Shown: positions 9,025 to 29,093 of the stretch, in pieces | Layout of the letters: each line of letters starts with the position of its first letter | Numbering within the stretch: the first letter of the stretch is position 1 | Assembly (NCBI GenBank): GCA_001045525.1 | Contig: LDWW01000036.1 | Coordinates: 1 to 32,427, forward strand | Source: Chitinispirillum alkaliphilum | GTDB taxonomy: Bacteria > Fibrobacterota > Chitinivibrionia > Chitinivibrionales > Chitinispirillaceae | Direction of reading: 5' to 3' | DNA: 32,427 nt | Position numbers and translations under genes: made by a program | The notes under the pieces: model-generated | What the model was told of the DNA's origin: nothing | Seen by the model: only the letters and a program-made list of their open reading frames with translations | Databases searched by the model: none

Positions 9025-9804
9025 ATGGAGTGGCGTCTTTTTTTCAGCACCTTTGCTTTAATCTTTCTTGCTGAGCTGGGGGATAAGACCCAGCTTGCCT
9101 CAATGGCTGCATCTGCAGGAACAAAATCACCCTGGTCAGTGTTTGCCGGGGCTGCAAGTGCGCTTGTTGTTTCTACTCTTGTAGCAGTGCTTGTGGGCTC
9201 ATTTCTTCAGAGAGTAGCTCCTAAACATCTAATTCAGGGCGTAGCAGCGGTCCTGTTCTTAATTTTTGGAATCATCTTGCTTCTGAGTGCTTTCGATTCA
9301 TATAAGAGTGAGAAGAGTGTAACTGGAAAACCTGATGGCTTGCTTTCCAGAACTGCGTTTAAAGCAGCAGAAATGTTTGAAAGAGAGTCGGCACAAGATT
9401 ACATGGCCCTTGCAGAAGCAGCCCAAAGTCCTCGGTTGCGTGAACTTCTCATACATCTTGCACAAGAAGAACAGCAGCACCTTTCTCATCTCCACAATTT
9501 ATCCCAAAAGCACAACCGCATCACAATCTCAGTTTCCCCTTCTGAGAATAGTATACCGCCTGTTCAAACGGACAAAACAGAAAATGACGGGACTTCAGAA
9601 CACGTTCTTGAGCAGGCAATTGAGCATGAAAAAGCAACTGCTCAGTTTTACAGAGCTTTGGCTAAGAGCTCTGTGATTACAGAACTACGCAGTGCCTTTA
9701 TCCTCCTTGCGGCTGAAGAGGAGGGGCATCTGGCTCATTTACTGGAGTTCAGAGATACAGGGAAGACAGATCTGCAGATGGAACATGAGTTTGAATTGGG
9801 TTAA
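9025..9804 (+). CDS. Half-size GDT1/UPF0016 membrane domain fused to a ferritin-like domain
   Basis: This 259-residue protein joins two parts. Residues 1-92 are one repeat of the UPF0016/GDT1 cation-transporter family: three membrane helices with the signature ELGDKTQ (E17-Q23) in the first. Full-length members have two such repeats and move Mn2+ or Ca2+. Residues 110-245 form a rubrerythrin/ferritin-like four-helix bundle with paired ligands: a Glu-rich helix at 112-131 (E121), EEQQH (E149, H152), EHEKATAQFY (E202) and EEEGH (E232, H235). The linker at 161-192 is polar. The design recalls membrane-bound ferritin/VIT fusions such as MbfA, which export iron, but with a different transporter. 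GGGGAG precedes the ATG by six bases. A DtxR/MntR-type repressor follows. A Mn or Fe exporter role is inferred. Confidence 0.85.
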   Translation: MEWRLFFSTFALIFLAELGDKTQLASMAASAGTKSPWSVFAGAASALVVSTLVAVLVGSFLQRVAPKHLIQGVAAVLFLIFGIILLLSAFDSYKSEKSVTGKPDGLLSRTAFKAAEMFERESAQDYMALAEAAQSPRLRELLIHLAQEEQQHLSHLHNLSQKHNRITISVSPSENSIPPVQTDKTENDGTSEHVLEQAIEHEKATAQFYRALAKSSVITELRSAFILLAAEEEGHLAHLLEFRDTGKTDLQMEHEFELG

Positions 9805-9999: not shown

Positions 10000-10028
10000 T
10001 TGCACCTAGTTTATCTAATATTTATATT
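10000..10028 (+). promoter_or_regulatory. Predicted sigma-70 promoter of the DtxR/MntR-family gene
   Basis: TTGCAC at 10000-10005 and TATATT at 10023-10028 are separated by exactly 17 bases. Transcription should start near 10035, inside the operator that follows. Confidence 0.65.
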
Positions 10029-10029
10029 G

Positions 10030-10052
10030 TTAGATATGTCTAATTGGATTAG
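10030..10052 (+). promoter_or_regulatory. Predicted metalloregulator operator TTAG-N6-CTAA-N5-TTAG
   Basis: TTAGATATGTCTAA is a perfect inverted repeat (TTAGA/TCTAA) and is followed after five bases by another TTAG, which also makes CTAAT-TGG-ATTAG. The element sits two bases after the -10 box and touches the Shine-Dalgarno AGGAGG, an ideal place for autorepression. The same three-part pattern with the same spacings occurs at 28104-28126 before the ZIP gene. DtxR-family sites are commonly inverted repeats with TTAG/CTAA-type half-sites. Confidence 0.65.
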
Positions 10053-10060
10053 GAGGGTAT

Positions 10061-10567
10061 GTGGTATCCATAACAAGTACTATGGAAGATTATCTCGAAG
10101 TTATACTCAATATTGTTACACAGAATGGTGTTGCCCGTTCTATGGAAATTGCTGAAAAACTCAATGTAAAACGTCCCACCGTTACAGTTGCACTTCGCTC
10201 TCTTGCAGAAAAGGGAATGGTGAATTATTCACCCGGTTCATATGTTACACTCACCGAGACAGGGAAAGAAATCGCCAGGCATATAGAGAAAAGACATAAT
10301 GCCCTAAAAGACTTTTTCATCAATGTGTTGAACGTACCTGAAACAGAAGCTGATGAAGTGGCGTGCAAAATGGAACATGGAATGGGTGTTGAGGTATGCA
10401 AGAAACTCAATTCGTTTCTAAGGGTACTCGAAAAGAACAAGGCATTGGCAGATGAGTTGAAAAAGAGTGTTTTAAAAGAAAATGCAAATCATGAATGTGT
10501 GGAAAGTCAAAAGGACAGTTGTCATAATTTTCAAAGCGGTGAGAAAAATGATAAGATCACGACCTGA
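10061..10567 (+). CDS. DtxR/MntR-family metal-dependent repressor
   Basis: A metal-activated repressor of 168 residues with an N-terminal winged helix (about 5-70; RSMEIAEKLNVKRPTVTVALRSL is the recognition region) and a dimerisation/metal domain (75-130). Visible metal ligands are D10 and E13 in MEDYLE, H79 in EKRHN, and C102, E105 and H106 in CKMEH. D10 is the MntR-type residue, while Cys at 102 matches DtxR/IdeR, so Mn versus Fe preference is open. There is no SH3-like third domain. The tail (140-168) has two Cys and two His. The start is GTG with AGGAGG four bases upstream, giving the usual MEDYLE position. It probably represses itself and the ZIP gene. Confidence 0.9.
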   Translation: MVSITSTMEDYLEVILNIVTQNGVARSMEIAEKLNVKRPTVTVALRSLAEKGMVNYSPGSYVTLTETGKEIARHIEKRHNALKDFFINVLNVPETEADEVACKMEHGMGVEVCKKLNSFLRVLEKNKALADELKKSVLKENANHECVESQKDSCHNFQSGEKNDKITT

Positions 10568-10750: not shown

Positions 10751-11578
10751 ATGGGAATTAAACAAGTAATGGTTTGTTGTTGGATTCTTCTGAGCTCAGG
10801 ATATCTGTTTATCTCAACAGCACAGGATACACAGGAAGTGCGTTCTGAAATAGATCAGTACAGATCAAAGATCGAAGAAATACGCAAAAAAATCGATCAC
10901 ACAAATCAAAAAGCGCACCAGGACAGTGTTGCGTTTGCACAGTATGTGACAGATCATGAAGAGAGGGCCAGGCGGTTATCAAGTGAAACGGATTCTCTGA
11001 GTGCCCTTATCAAACGTCTAAACTCTACAAGAGATTCTCTTGAAGCGCGGGTTGCAGCATCAGATGTGCAAACAGGTAATTACAGGGCCCAGTCCAGGAA
11101 TCTGCTTAGGGCTATTGGTTCCAACTGCAAAGAGCTTATCGATTCACTTGGACATTTAAGCATGTTCAATGCAGACAACCTGGTGAGCGCACTGAAATTT
11201 CTCGAGGGTGAGATCAGTGCAGGAAGTGTGGGTGCAGTAGAGGCTCTGGAGAGATATTGGCAAATTGTAACCCAGATCGAGAACGCATCCCAGCGCATAG
11301 AAACCTGGAGTGGCCCTGCTCCGGTACCTTCAGTGCAGGGGGATTTTACCTGGCTAAGGATAGGGTTTGTGTGGGTTGGTTGTGTAAGTAATGACGGGAA
11401 TACGGGATATATGTGGCAAAATGACACAGAAGAATGGGTGCAGATCGAAAGTTTGGTACAATTATCAAGCATCAGCAAAGCAGCCCGGCTTACATCCGGA
11501 ATGGCTGCACCCGAACTGGTCTCAATTCCTTTTAACCATCTGATAAGAATTGCAGGAGAACAGGAGGAGGCACAATGA
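10751..11578 (+). CDS. DUF3450-type periplasmic coiled-coil protein of the TonB2 module
   Basis: First gene of a six-gene operon. The 275-residue product has a signal peptide (1-24), then long coiled-coil helices (about 25-185) and a small beta-rich C-terminal part (200-262) with LRIGFVWVGCVSNDG and EEWVQIESL. This matches DUF3450-type proteins that accompany TtpC/ExbB2/ExbD2/TonB2 systems in proteobacteria. Their exact role is not known; a periplasmic scaffold or TonB partner is likely. The C-terminal part resembles residues 200-266 of the next protein, pointing to shared ancestry. It overlaps the next gene by ATGA, showing translational coupling. An upstream promoter is not obvious. Confidence 0.75.
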   Translation: MGIKQVMVCCWILLSSGYLFISTAQDTQEVRSEIDQYRSKIEEIRKKIDHTNQKAHQDSVAFAQYVTDHEERARRLSSETDSLSALIKRLNSTRDSLEARVAASDVQTGNYRAQSRNLLRAIGSNCKELIDSLGHLSMFNADNLVSALKFLEGEISAGSVGAVEALERYWQIVTQIENASQRIETWSGPAPVPSVQGDFTWLRIGFVWVGCVSNDGNTGYMWQNDTEEWVQIESLVQLSSISKAARLTSGMAAPELVSIPFNHLIRIAGEQEEAQ

Positions 11579-13041
11579 GACTAAAGATATTATTGCTGCT
11601 GTTTTTTTGTGCCCAGATAAGTTTTGCCTCCCGTCATAACCGGGCTGAACAGGAAGAGTTACTTCAGACTCTTCAGGAGCTCAGAAACACCTATAATGCA
11701 GAACAGAACCGGTTACAGAGGGTTACCGATGACCGCTGGTCGCAGCGTCAGCGGCAGGTGGATCAAAAAACAGCATACCAACAGTCTGCAGACAGAACGC
11801 TTAATGAAATTGAACGGCTCTATTCAGAAATTGCCCGTGCCCGTGAGGAGATTCTCATGCATGAGAGCAGGGCGTCTGCTGTTGTATCTCAACTGGAACG
11901 GGAGAGGGACAGTTATACAGCAATTGGCCGCACAATTCAGTCGATAATAGAGAGGCAAGAGGATGCAATAAGGTCGGGTTTTGTAATTGGTCAGCAGCAA
12001 AGATCCCATGATCTTCAGAGTATTGCCTTATCCGAGGGGCGCAGGGCTGCACAGGTACTCAGACGCCTTAACTTGCTCAACACATATGTAAACGATCGTC
12101 TTCGGGACCAGTCTGCCATAGAACTTCGTAAAGAGACAGTTGCTTTGCCGGACAACACACTCGATGAGGTTACAGCTTTAAGGTTTGGAAATGTGTTTGC
12201 AGTGGCTGTCAATGATACGGGGGCCACTTATTATCTTGGTTACACCGCTCAGCGGGCTTCTCAGCCTTTTGAATGGGTAAAGCTGAGCGATGAGGCCGCA
12301 TCCCGAAATATTATTCAACATATGCCCCGGTGGTTAAACCAGGGACGTGTTGAGGGTAATGTGTATCTGGATGTCATGCAGAACCGTCATTCCGGAGAAC
12401 TGCTTGGAGTCGAGAGGAAAGGGTTTATACAGGCTGCAAAAGATTTTTTCCTTGCTGGTGGAATTATAATGATTCCCCTGGGGCTTATTTGCCTGTGGGC
12501 TCTTTTACTTCTTGTAAATCGTATGGTGGTATATTCGCTTACTCACTCCAGGGATGATAAATTTATTGATGAAGCGATTGTGTTTCTCAATCAGAAAAAG
12601 ATGGATGAAGCTCACAATCTTGCAGAAAATAGCAAAGGAGTGCTTGCAAGAATCCTTAACACATGTCTTCATCATTCTAAGTGGAAACGTCCTGTAGCGG
12701 AAAAAGCGGTAAAGGAACTTTTGCTCGACGAAGTACCTGCTCTTGACAAGCATCTTGATACGCTGGCAGTGCTTGCTGCTGCGGCTCCTCTTTTGGGACT
12801 TTTGGGGACGGTGACCGGAATGATTAGCATGTTCGAGTCGATCACAACTTTTGGTACAGGGGATCCTCAGCTTTTGGCTGGAGGAATCTCAGAAGCGCTG
12901 GTTACCACAAAAGCCGGATTGGCAATAGCTATTCCGATACTGCTTATACACAACTTTCTGCGTAACCGTAAAAATCATATACAGTCCGAAATGGAGGTAT
13001 ACGCGATGCGTATACTCAACAGACTCTGGCCTGAGGAGTAG
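11575..13041 (+). CDS. TtpC-like long ExbB: periplasmic coiled coil plus MotA/TolQ/ExbB channel domain
   Basis: This protein of 488 residues begins with a signal peptide (1-18, ending FAS). It has a long periplasmic coiled-coil region (20-190), a small beta-containing segment (200-266; ALRFGNVFAVAVNDTG, FEWVKLSDE) and a first membrane helix (291-317). A MotA/TolQ/ExbB proton-channel domain ends the protein, with the signature LAAAAPLLGLLGTVTGMI and a TKAGLAIAIPILLIHNF helix. In Vibrio TonB2 systems the equivalent TtpC is needed in addition to ExbB2 to energise TonB2. The ExbB-type domain is normal in length. It is the second gene of the operon, ATGA-coupled to the first gene and 10 bases ahead of the short ExbB. 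Confidence 0.88.
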   Translation: MRLKILLLLFFCAQISFASRHNRAEQEELLQTLQELRNTYNAEQNRLQRVTDDRWSQRQRQVDQKTAYQQSADRTLNEIERLYSEIARAREEILMHESRASAVVSQLERERDSYTAIGRTIQSIIERQEDAIRSGFVIGQQQRSHDLQSIALSEGRRAAQVLRRLNLLNTYVNDRLRDQSAIELRKETVALPDNTLDEVTALRFGNVFAVAVNDTGATYYLGYTAQRASQPFEWVKLSDEAASRNIIQHMPRWLNQGRVEGNVYLDVMQNRHSGELLGVERKGFIQAAKDFFLAGGIIMIPLGLICLWALLLLVNRMVVYSLTHSRDDKFIDEAIVFLNQKKMDEAHNLAENSKGVLARILNTCLHHSKWKRPVAEKAVKELLLDEVPALDKHLDTLAVLAAAAPLLGLLGTVTGMISMFESITTFGTGDPQLLAGGISEALVTTKAGLAIAIPILLIHNFLRNRKNHIQSEMEVYAMRILNRLWPEE

Positions 13042-13051
13042 AACAAGGTAT

Positions 13052-13636
13052 ATGCTCTACTATATTTATGATTATTATGCATCAAACGGAGGAATTGTAA
13101 ACGGAGCCATTTTTCTGGTTGCTGTGTTGACACTTTATACAGGGCTAAGAAAACTTCTGCAGTACCACGCTTACAGGAGTATAAAAAAGGGATATTCTGA
13201 CACACCCGGCGTAATTAAAACAATGGCGTCAGTGGATATATGGTTCAGTGCCCATGAAGGCAGCTCTGTTTTGAACTATCGAAACATTTTCCGGGAACGG
13301 CTTATAGAAGTGTCATCACAGCTCGATGAAGGACTTAATACCATGGCTGCACTGATTCAGGCCGCACCGCTTCTGGGGTTGTTTGGAACTGTAATGGGGA
13401 TGATACGGACCTTTACACTTATAACATCCTTTGGTACTGCCAATCCTGTGGTGTTAACTGAAGGAATCACGATCTCTCTTCTCACAACTCAGGCTGGGCT
13501 TCTTGTCGCATTTCCATCTATGCTTTTCCATAACTATGTTGTGGGAAGGAAAAACGCACTTGTTCAGGAGATAATTGCTCATAGTGAGGCTGTTATCTCG
13601 GGCATGTCAACGGAGAAAAGTAAAGATGAATTATGA
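13052..13636 (+). CDS. exbB: ExbB-family proton-channel subunit (short, ExbB2-type)
   Basis: An inner-membrane protein of 194 residues of the MotA/TolQ/ExbB family. It has three membrane helices (about 15-32, 100-127 and 145-167) with the signature LIQAAPLLGLFGTVMGMI and a TTQAGLLVAFPSMLFHNY helix. With ExbD it forms the proton-driven motor that powers TonB. It lacks the periplasmic extension seen in the preceding TtpC-like protein, so the operon encodes two different ExbB-type subunits, as in TonB2 systems. The start follows AAGG, and the end overlaps exbD by 11 bases. Confidence 0.92.
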   Translation: MLYYIYDYYASNGGIVNGAIFLVAVLTLYTGLRKLLQYHAYRSIKKGYSDTPGVIKTMASVDIWFSAHEGSSVLNYRNIFRERLIEVSSQLDEGLNTMAALIQAAPLLGLFGTVMGMIRTFTLITSFGTANPVVLTEGITISLLTTQAGLLVAFPSMLFHNYVVGRKNALVQEIIAHSEAVISGMSTEKSKDEL

Positions 13637-14039
13637 TGAATATGGACTGATCGGTAAAAAGTCAGCTAATGCAGAGGTAAATATCGGACCTCTTCTGGAT
13701 ATGGTTTTCATACTGCTTATATTTTTTGTGGTAACCACCAATTTCAACCGTGAGACCGGTGTCGATGTCACCAAACCAAGTGCCCAGAATGCGGTGACAC
13801 TGGGAGAAAAAACAATACTTGTGGGCGTTTCCCGTGAGGGGACAATTCATGTCCATGGGAGGCAGGTTACACCAGAAGCGCTTTTGAGTATTCTTAGCAG
13901 AGAAGTCACTCAGCGTCCCGATGTTTCGGTCGTTATAGTGGGTGATGTAGGTTCAACACTGGGAAGAACAGTTGAGATTATGGACATCTCTGCAAGAGCC
14001 GGGATCTCACAGGTCTCGGTATCTGCAGATAAAAATTAG
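13626..14039 (+). CDS. exbD: ExbD-family motor subunit
   Basis: This 137-residue protein has one N-terminal membrane helix (about 19-38) with the functional Asp in PLLDMVFILLIFF. A periplasmic ExbD/TolR domain follows, with TLGEKTILVGVSREG, RPDVSVVIVGD and an ending ISQVSVSADKN. The Asp carries protons through the ExbB-ExbD channel. I start the gene at ATG 13626, where the protein reads MNYDEYG, because GGAGA lies upstream. A longer reading from 13575 would overlap exbB by 62 bases and add a basic stretch that ExbD proteins lack. Confidence 0.92.
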   Translation: MNYDEYGLIGKKSANAEVNIGPLLDMVFILLIFFVVTTNFNRETGVDVTKPSAQNAVTLGEKTILVGVSREGTIHVHGRQVTPEALLSILSREVTQRPDVSVVIVGDVGSTLGRTVEIMDISARAGISQVSVSADKN

Positions 14040-14052
14040 AGAATGGTTGTGC

Positions 14053-14697
14053 ATGGTTCTTAAGAATTATTTAAAAATTCAGGGTATTAAGATTACCTGC
14101 ATGGCAGTTGCACTAAGTGCTTCATTTTTGCTGTTTTCTGTACTGCCCTTTACACGTACACTAATCGACATAGATTCTGAACGCAAAGCAGATGCTCCGC
14201 GCAGTGTCCCGGTTGTAATGCAGCGCATTGTGGAGCAGCGGGAGCTGAGCGATCAGCCCATGCGTCAGGTAAGGGAGATGCAAAATCCGGCAAGTAATGT
14301 CAGGAGCAGCAGAAACCTCGGTTTTTCAATGCGTTTTACTCCTGATCTCGGTGTGGGGGGCTCAGGGGGAGGAGTTGGTTTTGGCCATGAGGATCTGGGG
14401 AGTGTTGTGTTTGATGAAGGAGATGTGGATGAACATCCGCGTCCTGTGTCAAGACCTGCCATTGTCTATCCAAGGCGCGCCAAAGATCTGGGTATAGAAG
14501 GTACGGTATCGGTTATAATGGTTGTAGACAGAGAGGGAAGGGTGAAGGATGTCACTGTGGAATCTTCTCCCCACATTTTGTTAACCAGAGCAGTCGAGCA
14601 GTCAGTCCGGCGATGGAGATTTGAACCCGCTCGTTATCAGGGTGTACCGGTGCAGGTAAGGACAAGGCAGGAATTATCGTTCAGGTTAGATCAATGA
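14053..14697 (+). CDS. tonB: TonB-family energy transducer
   Basis: A TonB protein of 214 residues with one N-terminal membrane anchor (about 14-35). The periplasmic linker (40-130) is charged and Gly-rich (GVGGSGGGVGFG), without the Pro-Lys/Pro-Glu repeats of classical TonB. The C-terminal TonB domain (about 134-214) has the expected motifs: AIVYPRRAKDLGIEGTVSV, then DVTVESSP, and RRWRFEPARYQG. It links the ExbB/ExbD motor to the TonB box of outer-membrane receptors. The start at ATG 14053 gives a normal short cytoplasmic N-terminus; the ribosome binding site is weak, so coupling to exbD 13 bases upstream is likely. The stop overlaps the TPR gene by ATGA. Confidence 0.9.
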   Translation: MVLKNYLKIQGIKITCMAVALSASFLLFSVLPFTRTLIDIDSERKADAPRSVPVVMQRIVEQRELSDQPMRQVREMQNPASNVRSSRNLGFSMRFTPDLGVGGSGGGVGFGHEDLGSVVFDEGDVDEHPRPVSRPAIVYPRRAKDLGIEGTVSVIMVVDREGRVKDVTVESSPHILLTRAVEQSVRRWRFEPARYQGVPVQVRTRQELSFRLDQ

Positions 14698-15725
14698 AAA
14701 AGGGAAACTTACATACAGTTTTTGCTGTGTTGCTTCTTTTCTGTGGGAATATTCATGCGCAGAACGCAGGATTTCTGTCCCGGGGAAATGAGTATTATGG
14801 CAATAGTGATTATGAAAAGGCAATAACTGCTTATGGCCGGGCTATTGAGGAAGATGAAAATCCTGCTATGGCCTGGTTTAACAAGGGTAATGCTCATTAT
14901 CAGATGGGCAATATGCATAAGGCAGTCTCTTGTTATCAAATGGCTACATTGGAAGCACCCGATTTCTTGCGTGGCTGGACAAATCTTGGGGTGATATATC
15001 ATGAGATGGGGGATTATGGAGCCAGTGTGGCAGCTTTGGAACGTGTGCTGGGAAAATCCGGGAGTCAAGATGTCCTTGTCATGTCGGTTCTTGCGTCTTC
15101 ATACAAAAATCTGCACAATTTCAGCAAGGCTGCAGTGTATCTGGAAAAAGTTTTTGAAATGGACAGTACTGTCAGTGATGCGGTTCTTCTGCTTTATGAA
15201 ATTGCTGTAATGACAGGTGATAACAGAGAAGCGCTTAGGTGGCTTTCAAATTACCCGGAATCCGGTTCCCGCCGTTATGACGTTTTGCTTATTAAGGGTG
15301 AGCTGATGGAACAGATGGGTGATACAGCCGGGGCCCTGGCTGCGTTTCGTCAGTGTACACGGATTTCACCAGAGCGAATGCGGGGGTGGATTGCGCTGGT
15401 AAATAATCTCAAAGAGATGGATGCTGTGTATACCGCACTTCTGGAGGCTGAATCAGCACTTAAAATAAACGAATCATTTATCCCGCTTGCTCTTGTTGCT
15501 GGACGTATTGCTTTTGAGGTTGGGTTTTATGAAAGAGCAGAATTTTTCTTTGGTTTAGCATATAATGCAGGGCATCCGGAAGGGGTGGTTGGCCTGAGCA
15601 ATCTTATAAATGTACATGAGCGTTATAGTGATTATGCTTCAGTTGTAAGGGTTAGGTCGATATTTACTACCCAAAGAGAAAATAAACCACATAAAGAGAA
15701 AAACGCTGCAGATAAAAGGGACTGA
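14694..15725 (+). CDS. Periplasmic TPR-repeat protein of the TonB2 module
   Basis: Last gene of the operon: 343 residues with a signal peptide (1-22, ending IHAQ) followed by tandem tetratricopeptide repeats. Clear units start near residues 27 (FLSRGNEYYGNSDYEKAI), 61 (AWFNKGNAHYQMGNMHKA) and 95 (GWTNLGVIYHEMGDYGAS), with degenerate ones to about residue 310. The tail is rich in Lys and Asp. TPR proteins are regular partners in TtpC/TonB2 clusters, where they are thought to scaffold the complex in the periplasm. The ATGA overlap with tonB shows coupling. The ligand or contact partner is not visible. Confidence 0.85.
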   Translation: MKKGNLHTVFAVLLLFCGNIHAQNAGFLSRGNEYYGNSDYEKAITAYGRAIEEDENPAMAWFNKGNAHYQMGNMHKAVSCYQMATLEAPDFLRGWTNLGVIYHEMGDYGASVAALERVLGKSGSQDVLVMSVLASSYKNLHNFSKAAVYLEKVFEMDSTVSDAVLLLYEIAVMTGDNREALRWLSNYPESGSRRYDVLLIKGELMEQMGDTAGALAAFRQCTRISPERMRGWIALVNNLKEMDAVYTALLEAESALKINESFIPLALVAGRIAFEVGFYERAEFFFGLAYNAGHPEGVVGLSNLINVHERYSDYASVVRVRSIFTTQRENKPHKEKNAADKRD

Positions 15726-26679: not shown

Positions 26680-26983
26680 AATGTTTACTTTTCAGTTAAG
26701 GTGTTTTTCATTATTGGGACAGTAGAATATAACCATCCGCAAGGTTTTATGTCCATCATATTGAATTTATCAGTCCATCTTAAACGGAATCATACCAGGA
26801 GGCAGATTTTTCTGGACTTGATTTTTCAAGGCTGAAAAATCTATGTTATTAACTGCAAGATAGAGTGGGGTAGGGGAATGCAGAATACTCAGACTAAGTT
26901 TTTCCTGGGCATATAGAAGCTTTCCGCTGCTCAGTTTTCCCCTGAAATATACACATTACTCATCAGTAGTTTTGGAGCAGCCC
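26680..26983. other. Divergent promoter region
   Basis: The 304 bases between the MATE operon and the CDF exporter hold no gene. They contain copy 2 of the dispersed 23-bp repeat (26862-26884). I see no TTAG-N6-CTAA operator here, so the CDF gene is probably not under the same repressor as the ZIP gene. Confidence 0.4.
26862..26884 (+). repeat. Dispersed 23-bp repeat, copy 2
   Basis: Same-orientation copy of the element at 717-739, here 100 bases upstream of the CDF gene start. The flanking sequences differ. Confidence 0.55.
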
Positions 26984-27898
26984 ATGTTATGCGAAACAGT
27001 ACATACCATACCGGATAACCGAAGAAATAAGAAACGAACAATACTTGTCATGATAATTACTGCACTCACCATGATTGCAGAAATCACTATGGGGCTTCTA
27101 TCGGGTTCCATGGCACTTCTTTCGGATGGTATTCACACGGGGACACACACTCTGGCGTTTTTGTTTACCCTGATTGCCTATGCCTTTGCTGAGCGCCACG
27201 GGAAAAACAGGAAGTTTACCTTCGGGACAGGGAAGGTGGGGGTTCTGGCGGGATATACCTCTGCCATAGCGCTTATCATTACAGCAGGGATAATGGTAAA
27301 GGAATCGATTCACCGCTTGATTTCCCCCACAGATATCCAGTTTCGAGATGCTCTTATTGTGTCTGGGATAGGCCTTACAATCAACGTTTTCTGTGCCCTG
27401 ATTCTTTCAGACCATCATCATCATGAAAAAAAACACTGCCATGGTCATCATCATGATCACAACCTGCGTGCAGCCTACCTGCATGTTCTTACCGATGCAC
27501 TTACTTCACTTCTTGCAATTATCGCTCTTCTTGCGGGAATGTTTATGGGAATGGTGTGGCTTGATCCTGCTGTGGGAATCATTGGTGCCGGTGTTATACT
27601 TCACTGGGCTGTGGGGCTTTTAAAAAGTACGGGAAAAATACTGCTTGACTACAATGAGGATAACGCTCTGGTGAATGATGTAAAGGATATCCTGCTCACC
27701 GGCGGTGTGAAAAATATCCACGATCTTCACATCTGGCGGGTATCCCCCGACCAACGATTTCTTATGGCAACTGTGGAGGGGGATGGTATAGATAAAGAAC
27801 CGCTTCTTCAAAAACTGCGTGAAACTCAGGAATACTGTCATATCACCATCGATATTATTTGTGTTAAATCAAACGCGAGTTTACCAAAACACTCTTAA
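26984..27898 (+). CDS. CDF-family divalent metal exporter (DmeF-like)
   Basis: A cation diffusion facilitator of 304 residues with six membrane helices that exports divalent metals by proton antiport. The first metal site is DGIHTGTH (D48, H51, H55) and the second HVLTD (H167, D171), a pattern typical of the DmeF-like group linked with Co2+, Ni2+ or Zn2+. A His-rich cytoplasmic loop (about 143-159: HHHHEKKHCHGHHHDH) lies between helices 4 and 5. The C-terminal cytoplasmic domain includes NIHDLHIWRVSPD. I start at ATG 26984 because GGAG lies six bases upstream; a TTG at 26972 has no such site. It is upstream of, but 448 bases away from, a ZIP importer. Confidence 0.9.
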   Translation: MLCETVHTIPDNRRNKKRTILVMIITALTMIAEITMGLLSGSMALLSDGIHTGTHTLAFLFTLIAYAFAERHGKNRKFTFGTGKVGVLAGYTSAIALIITAGIMVKESIHRLISPTDIQFRDALIVSGIGLTINVFCALILSDHHHHEKKHCHGHHHDHNLRAAYLHVLTDALTSLLAIIALLAGMFMGMVWLDPAVGIIGAGVILHWAVGLLKSTGKILLDYNEDNALVNDVKDILLTGGVKNIHDLHIWRVSPDQRFLMATVEGDGIDKEPLLQKLRETQEYCHITIDIICVKSNASLPKHS

Positions 27899-28062: not shown

Positions 28063-28091
28063 TTGACATCAAAATCAAAACCATTTATATT
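28063..28091 (+). promoter_or_regulatory. Predicted sigma-70 promoter of the ZIP gene
   Basis: A perfect -35 TTGACA (28063-28068) and TATATT (28086-28091) are separated by 17 bases. Transcription should start near 28098, a few bases before the operator, leaving a leader of about 250 bases. Confidence 0.7.
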
Positions 28092-28103
28092 AATTATTGT
28101 TGA

Positions 28104-28126
28104 TTAGAGTGGCCTAATCTGGTTAG
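28104..28126 (+). promoter_or_regulatory. Predicted metalloregulator operator TTAG-N6-CTAA-N5-TTAG
   Basis: GATTAG-AGTGGC-CTAATC is a perfect 6-bp inverted repeat, followed after CTAA and five bases by a third half-site TTAG. Pattern and spacing match the element at 10030-10052 in the repressor's own promoter. Its place at the start of the transcript fits repression of ZIP synthesis when metal is plentiful. Confidence 0.65.
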
Positions 28127-28346
28127 ACGCGGGTAATGTCCATTCAAAGATTAGTCGCAGAGGAGTGAATCCTCACAGAAACACTCTGTGAGTGCCCGGA
28201 AGATATGGCGGTTAAATGATAATTGACCTTTTATGTAATGTTAAAAGAACTCTTAATGAGAGTTGATTAAATGTATAATTTTCATCATTTTAACTACAGC
28301 ATTTTCGGTATAATCGTTTGCTGCTGTTAAAGAGCGGGGGGGGACT

Positions 28347-29093
28347 ATGGAAAGTGTTTTATACAGTTTTTATGCCGGAGTGTCAACTGCAGTAGGAGCG
28401 CTGCTGCTTTTTATATTTGGAAAGCCCAATAAGAAGTTCCTTGCTGGCCTTTTGGGGTTTGCAGGTGGAATTATGGTTGCTATTTCACTTTTTGAATTAA
28501 TGCCGGAAGCGTATGAATTTGGTTCTATGGCAAGCACTGTGATTGGTTTTGTATTGGGTGTAGCACTTATGTTTTTGGTAGACAGGATTTTGCCCCATGC
28601 TCATGTGACTACATCGGACAACTTCGAGGAAGAGAATCCTGAGAATCTCAAGCCTATGAAAAGCCCTGTATTAAGGACAGGTTTTTTGGTTCTTTTCGGT
28701 ATTGCCCTGCATAATCTGCCTGAAGGCCTTGCCATCGGTGCAGGACTGGAATCAAGTCAGCATTTGGGTTTTGTGATTGCCATTGCCATTGCTTTGCATA
28801 ATATTCCCGAAGGACTTGCTATAGCTGGTCCACTGAAATCAGGGGGGCTAACAAATATGAAAATACTTCTGCTGACTGTCTCCGCTGGACTTATGACCCC
28901 GGTAGGAGCGATCATCGGACACCTGTTTTTTAACATTTCAGAAGTGTTTGTTGGTGGTGCACTTGCATTTGCTGCTGGTGCCATGGTATACATCGTAAAT
29001 GACGAATTGGTTCCCAGTGCAAATAAGCTCAACACCCACTATGCCAACATCGGGATTATGGGTGGGATAATCCTTGGTTTCGTAATCTTCTGA
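28347..29093 (+). CDS. ZIP-family divalent metal importer (ZupT-like)
   Basis: This 248-residue inner-membrane protein of the ZIP family has about eight helices. The metal site is seen twice, in HNLPEGLA (H122, N123, E126) and HNIPEGLA (H151, N152, E155). The cytoplasmic loop (84-108) holds HAH and several acidic residues but no long His run. ZIP proteins bring Zn2+, Fe2+ or Mn2+ into the cytoplasm. A predicted DtxR/MntR-type operator in the promoter favours Mn2+ or Fe2+ as the main physiological substrate here. The ATG follows a G-rich ribosome binding site (GCGGGGGGGG). The gene appears monocistronic. Confidence 0.92.
   Translation: MESVLYSFYAGVSTAVGALLLFIFGKPNKKFLAGLLGFAGGIMVAISLFELMPEAYEFGSMASTVIGFVLGVALMFLVDRILPHAHVTTSDNFEEENPENLKPMKSPVLRTGFLVLFGIALHNLPEGLAIGAGLESSQHLGFVIAIAIALHNIPEGLAIAGPLKSGGLTNMKILLLTVSAGLMTPVGAIIGHLFFNISEVFVGGALAFAAGAMVYIVNDELVPSANKLNTHYANIGIMGGIILGFVIF

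Follow-up and report, generated by a model that had tools for sequence, protein, structure and literature searches.

A predicted three-part operator shared by a DtxR/MntR-type repressor gene and a distant ZIP importer gene in Chitinispirillum alkaliphilum

Results

Genes and features of the locus

The window, which is the whole stretch of 32,427 nucleotides of C. alkaliphilum that was analyzed, carries a gene for a DtxR/MntR-type repressor (dtxR) and, 18 kb away, a gene for a ZIP-family metal importer, each preceded by a sigma-70-like promoter and by half-sites of identical spacing. The features concerned are given below, where G003 stands for a genome of a sister genus.

10000-10028, + strand: dtxR promoter, TTGCAC-N17-TATATT, read from the sequence (-35 at 10000-10005, -10 at 10023-10028)
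10030-10043, + strand: primary operator of dtxR, TTAG-ATATGT-CTAA, an exact match and predicted DtxR-type site for one dimer
10049-10062, + strand: degenerate second site at dtxR, starting with the third half-site TTAG (10049-10052), read from the sequence; TTAG at this gap of 5 is enriched in relatives
10061-10567, + strand: DtxR/MntR-type repressor, 168 aa, GTG start at 10061, without FeoA/SH3 domain (PF01325, 8.5e-14; PF02742, 1.8e-15)
26972-27898, + strand: DmeF-type CDF exporter, upstream neighbor of the ZIP gene (NF033827, 2.4e-93, above cut-off), with this synteny kept in G003
28063-28091, + strand: ZIP promoter, TTGACA-N17-TATATT, 11/12 consensus bases (-35 at 28063-28068, -10 at 28086-28091, both kept in G003)
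28104-28117, + strand: primary operator of ZIP, TTAG-AGTGGC-CTAA, an exact match conserved in G003
28123-28136, + strand: second tandem operator of ZIP, TTAG-ACGCGG-GTAA, one mismatch, centered 19 bp from the first, with GTA(A/T) kept in G003
28137-28346, + strand: ZIP 5' leader, long and possibly structured (RNA fold z-score -2.4; no Rfam match)
28347-29093, + strand: ZIP-family metal importer, 248 aa (PF02535, 6.2e-32, over cut-off)

Both protein assignments of the initial annotation were confirmed by Pfam: the repressor consists of Fe_dep_repress and Fe_dep_repr_C domains (PF01325 and PF02742, both over cut-off), and the importer is a ZIP protein by PF02535, although its score to the ZupT equivalog model lies below the cut-off (185.6 bits versus 252; 1e-54). 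The repressor is the sole PF01325 protein found in the genome, which also encodes two Fur-family proteins. When aligned to Bacillus subtilis MntR, it keeps the equivalents of the ligands D8, E11, H77, E102, and H103, while the position of E99 is taken by a Cys, as in DtxR (C102), which together with the Asp at D8 makes a hybrid site. The protein scored far below the cut-offs of the NCBIfam MntR models (78.5 bits versus 153 and 77 versus 138), and it has no Glu at position 99. The iron sensors IdeR and DtxR have a primary site made up of Met10, Cys102, Glu105, and His106 as well as an SH3-like domain; in the window repressor Cys, Glu, and His are kept, Asp replaces Met10, and there is no SH3/FeoA domain. 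Most such repressors (the window protein and those at loci L097, L099-L102, L137, L208, and L210) have a pair of Cys residues past the dimerization domain, arranged as C-x3-C before FeoA in the relatives and as C and CH in the tail of the window protein, possibly a metal or redox site.

The gene directly upstream of dtxR (9025-9804, + strand) encodes one protein in which GDT1 (UPF0016 cation/proton antiporter) and rubrerythrin/ferritin-like domains are combined, an architecture that recalls the iron exporter MbfA, with GDT1 in place of VIT; relatives occur in five genomes (G004, G033, G035, G039, and G025). Downstream of dtxR, positions 10751-15725 hold an ExbB/ExbD/TonB-type operon that starts with a DUF3450 gene and is syntenic in G003; no good operator match was found upstream of it. 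The ZIP leader of about 250 nt, which folds better than its shuffles, is matched in G003 by a leader of similar length, and a riboswitch in it was rejected for want of an Rfam match.

Operator sites and their uniqueness

The pattern TTAG-N6-CTAA-N5-TTAG is present exactly on the + strand upstream of both genes, as had been described, at 10030-10052 before dtxR (TTAGATATGTCTAATTGGATTAG) and at 28104-28126 before the ZIP gene (TTAGAGTGGCCTAATCTGGTTAG). A search with strict patterns through the whole Fibrobacterota genome (a 4.43-Mb draft of 4,434,773 bases, 98.9% complete) returned these two 23-mers and no others, so the full pattern, which the initial annotation had not noticed elsewhere in the window, is absent from the rest of the genome as well. 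The 14-bp palindrome TTAG-N6-CTAA by itself was found in 13 places, and within the window it is not very rare, with 8 of 100 shuffles of the window reaching two matches. The other 11 palindromes are intragenic, at 3' ends of genes, or intergenic, and they were rejected as further targets because none (0/11) precedes a recognizable metal gene. The genome-wide scan, proposed in the initial annotation as a check, thus gave few matches, and the proposed small metal regulon with autoregulation is supported by two strict sites and by palindromes that otherwise do not lie before metal genes. The primary operator of dtxR has the best profile score in the window (18.4). With the same profile, the best other scores reached at most 9.8, compared with a training minimum of 13.2; the regions upstream of the GDT1-ferritin gene and of the TonB receptor gave no good match, and a shared operator before either gene was rejected.

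The position relative to the promoter differs between the two genes. The operator had been placed just after the -10 element in both, which applies literally to dtxR, where it begins 1 bp past the -10 and spans the predicted transcription start; at ZIP it starts 12 bp past the -10, about one helical turn further down. A consensus scan of the dtxR promoter gave an overlapping 9/12 match that shares the same -10, the number of matches being not above chance. Two features were overlooked earlier: at dtxR, the third TTAG merges into the Shine-Dalgarno sequence (TTAGGAGGG), and the ZIP site continues beyond the 23-mer as TTAG-N6-GTAA to 28136. A fourth half-site is absent at dtxR.

Conservation and half-site spacing

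The ZIP ortholog of G003 is 90% identical; its promoter has the identical -35 and a near-identical -10, and the spacing from these to its operator (TTAGAATAGGCTAAGCAAATTAG) is unchanged. Comparison of the two ZIP 23-mers showed that all 12 half-site bases are kept versus 4 of the 11 other bases, on a background of 51% identity in the intergenic alignment and 56% at third codon positions; the fourth half-site reads GTAA in the window and GTAT in G003. The ZIP operator is known from these two genomes (the window genome, G000, and G003), and among other ZIP relatives and paralogs of the family none has the exact palindrome upstream; no ZIP relatives were found in viral contigs. A further copy of the three-part pattern in G003 stands directly after dtxR, where it precedes a DUF2023 gene. 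Two further exact 23-mers in that genome (contigs 5 and 27) lie inside coding sequence and were set aside.

The spacing within the palindrome is specific. In 91 nonredundant regions upstream of dtxR relatives, a set that includes some loci fetched via the pattern itself, TTAG-N6-CTAA occurs in 34 and any other spacing from 0 to 13 in 0 to 5. It precedes repressor relatives in Fibrobacterota, Omnitrophota, Planctomycetes, a Spirochaete (locus L074, TTAGGTTAGGCTAA), and deltaproteobacterial genomes, so that the pattern, whose loss in related genomes would have told against the initial annotation, is retained there. Both sites and the relatives agree with the initial description, in which the geometry of the half-sites is conserved and the bases between them vary. 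In one genome (G034, locus L136), the three-part pattern falls between the dtxR gene and an apparent Fur-family gene, a position that would suggest that DtxR also regulates Fur. A single dimer of Saccharopolyspora erythraea IdeR has been shown experimentally to bind half a box, and a 14-bp consensus, TTAGGNNNNCCTAA, was proposed for this one-dimer site (PMC8464063). At the window sites, the N6 spacing is exact in both, while the fifth G/C base (TTAGG-N4-CCTAA) is missing from either side of the site at 10030 and occurs on just one side of that at 28104. Judged by its sequence, TTAG-N6-CTAA is a predicted one-dimer DtxR/IdeR-type site.

Since some of the 91 regions had been fetched through the pattern, the third half-site was evaluated on protein-fetched loci. 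A word that agrees with TTAG in three or all four bases stands at a gap of 5 in 12 of 27 such sites, the window's own included, versus 1 to 5 at other gaps, and none of 20,000 flank permutations reached 12, a probability that is only indicative, since some of the 27 sites are related sequences. Loci L036 and L038 continue past the third half-site with N6-CTAA, which makes a perfect second palindrome at 19 bp; the second tandem site is perfect in some Planctomycetes and nearly complete at ZIP. In a Fibrobacter genome (L156, positions 1501-1549), the TTAG-N6-CTAA palindrome is repeated three times in succession, with a period of 19 bp, ahead of a gene for a possible AraC-type regulator.

Linkage to feoB

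PF01325 repressors above cut-off were found in 19 genomes of the order, and in 14 of these 19 the gene lies within 3 kb of feoB. All three feoB-linked repressors that were scanned against Pfam have a C-terminal FeoA domain, and by alignment a FeoA-like extension is present in most of the others, the repressors of G035 and G037 being exceptions. In Fibrobacter, the three-part and longer tandem operator precedes dtxR-feoA; we did not find these dtxR-feoA(-feoB) operons described in the literature searched. No full-length FeoB above cut-off was found in the window genome (draft, 98.9% complete) or in G003, both of which have dtxR without feoB and carry ZIP with the operator. In G004, from the genus of the window, FeoB is present, no DtxR was found, and ZIP is only distant. 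The window genome encodes on another contig (C1; L198, positions 1486-2754) a 423-aa FeoB-like protein with gate domains and without the GTPase domain, its gene adjoining fumarate reductase/succinate dehydrogenase-like genes, and G033 and G034 have FeoB fragments of about this length. With this gate protein retained, some FeoB function may persist. As the assembly is a draft, a feoB may also have been missed.

Discussion

The model that we consider highly probable as a whole is that a metal-loaded repressor dimer binds at both promoters with a second dimer adjacent to it, that both genes are repressed in metal-replete cells, and that the arrangement derives from a dtxR(-feoA)-feoB operon. The repressor encoded at 10061-10567, carrying Fe(II) or, with somewhat lower probability, Mn(II), would bind as a dimer to TTAG-N6-CTAA in its own promoter and in the ZIP promoter, and a second dimer would occupy, probably more weakly and perhaps cooperatively, the adjacent site centered 19 bp downstream. 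The operator at dtxR would cover the predicted transcription start and that at ZIP would lie just downstream of the start; from these positions and from dimer binding, it would follow that metal-replete cells shut off both genes and that metal-starved cells make the importer. The arrangement probably arose through loss of feoA and feoB from that operon, a ZIP gene being placed under the operator of the repressor instead.

That two AT-rich promoters without any regulatory link came to look alike by chance could be argued from the shuffles, in which the lone palindrome reaches two matches, yet we regard such a coincidence as very unlikely, because the 23-mer is unique genome-wide, is placed at both promoters, and is kept in relatives, both as the ZIP operator of G003 and as the spacing-specific recurrence upstream of dtxR in many phyla. 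If the first palindrome alone were bound, the third TTAG would have no role of its own, belonging to the Shine-Dalgarno region at dtxR and arising by chance at ZIP; the merging of the dtxR TTAG into GGAGGG, the lack of a fourth half-site there, and the many dtxR relatives with one palindrome only are consistent with this. We nevertheless think it unlikely, considering the enrichment of TTAG at the gap of 5 beyond permutation and the retention of the third and most of the fourth half-site at ZIP in G003. Given the perfect tandems in L036 and L038, the N6-GTAA continuation at ZIP, and the array of three in L156, we interpret the third half-site as the opening part of a putative second dimer site, adjacent to the first and centered 19 bp downstream. 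This assignment is secure at ZIP and ambiguous at dtxR, where the third TTAG may be nothing more than Shine-Dalgarno sequence and where the second site, being a poor match merged into that sequence, may be weak or unused. The classical DtxR/IdeR box has four CCTAA repeats in 19 bp, and its two dimers, offset by 5 bp, sit interlocked on opposite faces of the DNA. The two dimers on overlapping sites envisaged in the initial annotation are not supported, because the inverted repeats here are adjacent, with centers 19 bp apart.

With regard to the metal, we lean toward Fe(II) over Mn(II). Equally real DtxR operators could serve an MntR that controls a ZIP manganese importer, with the neighboring GDT1-type protein as a possible manganese exporter, and several lines of reasoning favor this less probable alternative: (i) by sequence, the closest characterized relatives are MntRs; (ii) the Asp/Cys/Glu/His site matches that of Porphyromonas gingivalis PgMntR, which is the one characterized protein with Cys at E99 and Asp at D8, is linked to an FeoB-like Mn transporter, and binds both metals, with Mn(II) strengthening and Fe(II) weakening DNA binding in vitro (PMC4805248); (iii) ZIP proteins can import Mn (PMC9334652); and (iv) the gene immediately upstream of dtxR encodes a GDT1 domain. 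On the other hand, sulfur ligands favor Fe(II) (PMC10317159), and the G003 gene under the same operator belongs to DUF2023, genes of which are among the most strongly induced by iron starvation in Bacteroidetes (PMC10434189). Against manganese also stand the association of dtxR with feoA(-feoB) in Fibrobacter and across the order and the GDT1-ferritin gene itself: it lacks a good operator match, and it is retained in G004, a genome in which no DtxR was found. The links to feo and DUF2023 speak for iron; ZIP and the adjacent GDT1 gene would be compatible with manganese.

Given that dtxR adjoins feoB in 14 of 19 genomes, that the window genome and G003 have no full-length FeoB, and that the FeoA domain of most feoB-linked relatives is missing from the window repressor, a replacement of FeoB by ZIP, with the repressor retained, is probable as judged from two genomes. 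To the fuller scenario, we would give an even chance: in one Chitinispirillales lineage, the repressor of its own dtxR-feoB operon, often FeoA-fused, would have lost FeoA and FeoB, and a tandem operator with a 19-bp period would have become established at an unlinked ZIP gene, yielding a regulated ferrous-iron importer.

Overall, this is a well-supported regulon of an ordinary metal-repressor kind, in which binding is predicted, the operator layout is unusual, and the change of target is of interest. It provides a concrete operator for a poorly studied DtxR/MntR branch of Fibrobacterota and other phyla, with a hybrid Asp/Cys metal site, often FeoA-fused and FeoB-linked; it suggests that ZIP importers can take the place of FeoB under an unchanged repressor; and its layout of adjacent dimer sites departs from the interlocked DtxR box seen in structures.

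These similarities and differences can be set against known systems. Like B. subtilis MntR, the window protein is a two-domain DtxR-family repressor with equivalents of D8, E11, H77, E102, and H103, but it has Cys for E99 and an extra, Cys-containing C-terminal tail. PgMntR shares its hybrid metal site and is linked to the FeoB-type Mn transporter FB2, with an FeoA domain as in relatives of the window repressor; the latter has neither an FeoA domain nor an adjacent feoB, the ZIP gene that is its second target lies at a distance of 18 kb, and no mapped PgMntR operator was found in the available part of the source (PMC4805248). The dtxR-feoA(-feoB) operons of Fibrobacter have the same three-part and longer tandem operator before the repressor gene, but their likely cotranscribed target is feo, whereas the window target is a separate ZIP gene. 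With the half-site of S. erythraea IdeR, the window sites have in common the one-dimer spacing TTAG-N6-CTAA and the placement at the promoter or transcription start (PMC8464063), while the fifth G/C base is mostly not kept. The full IdeR box, finally, interlocks two dimers with a 5-bp offset, in contrast to the two adjacent sites 19 bp apart in the window.
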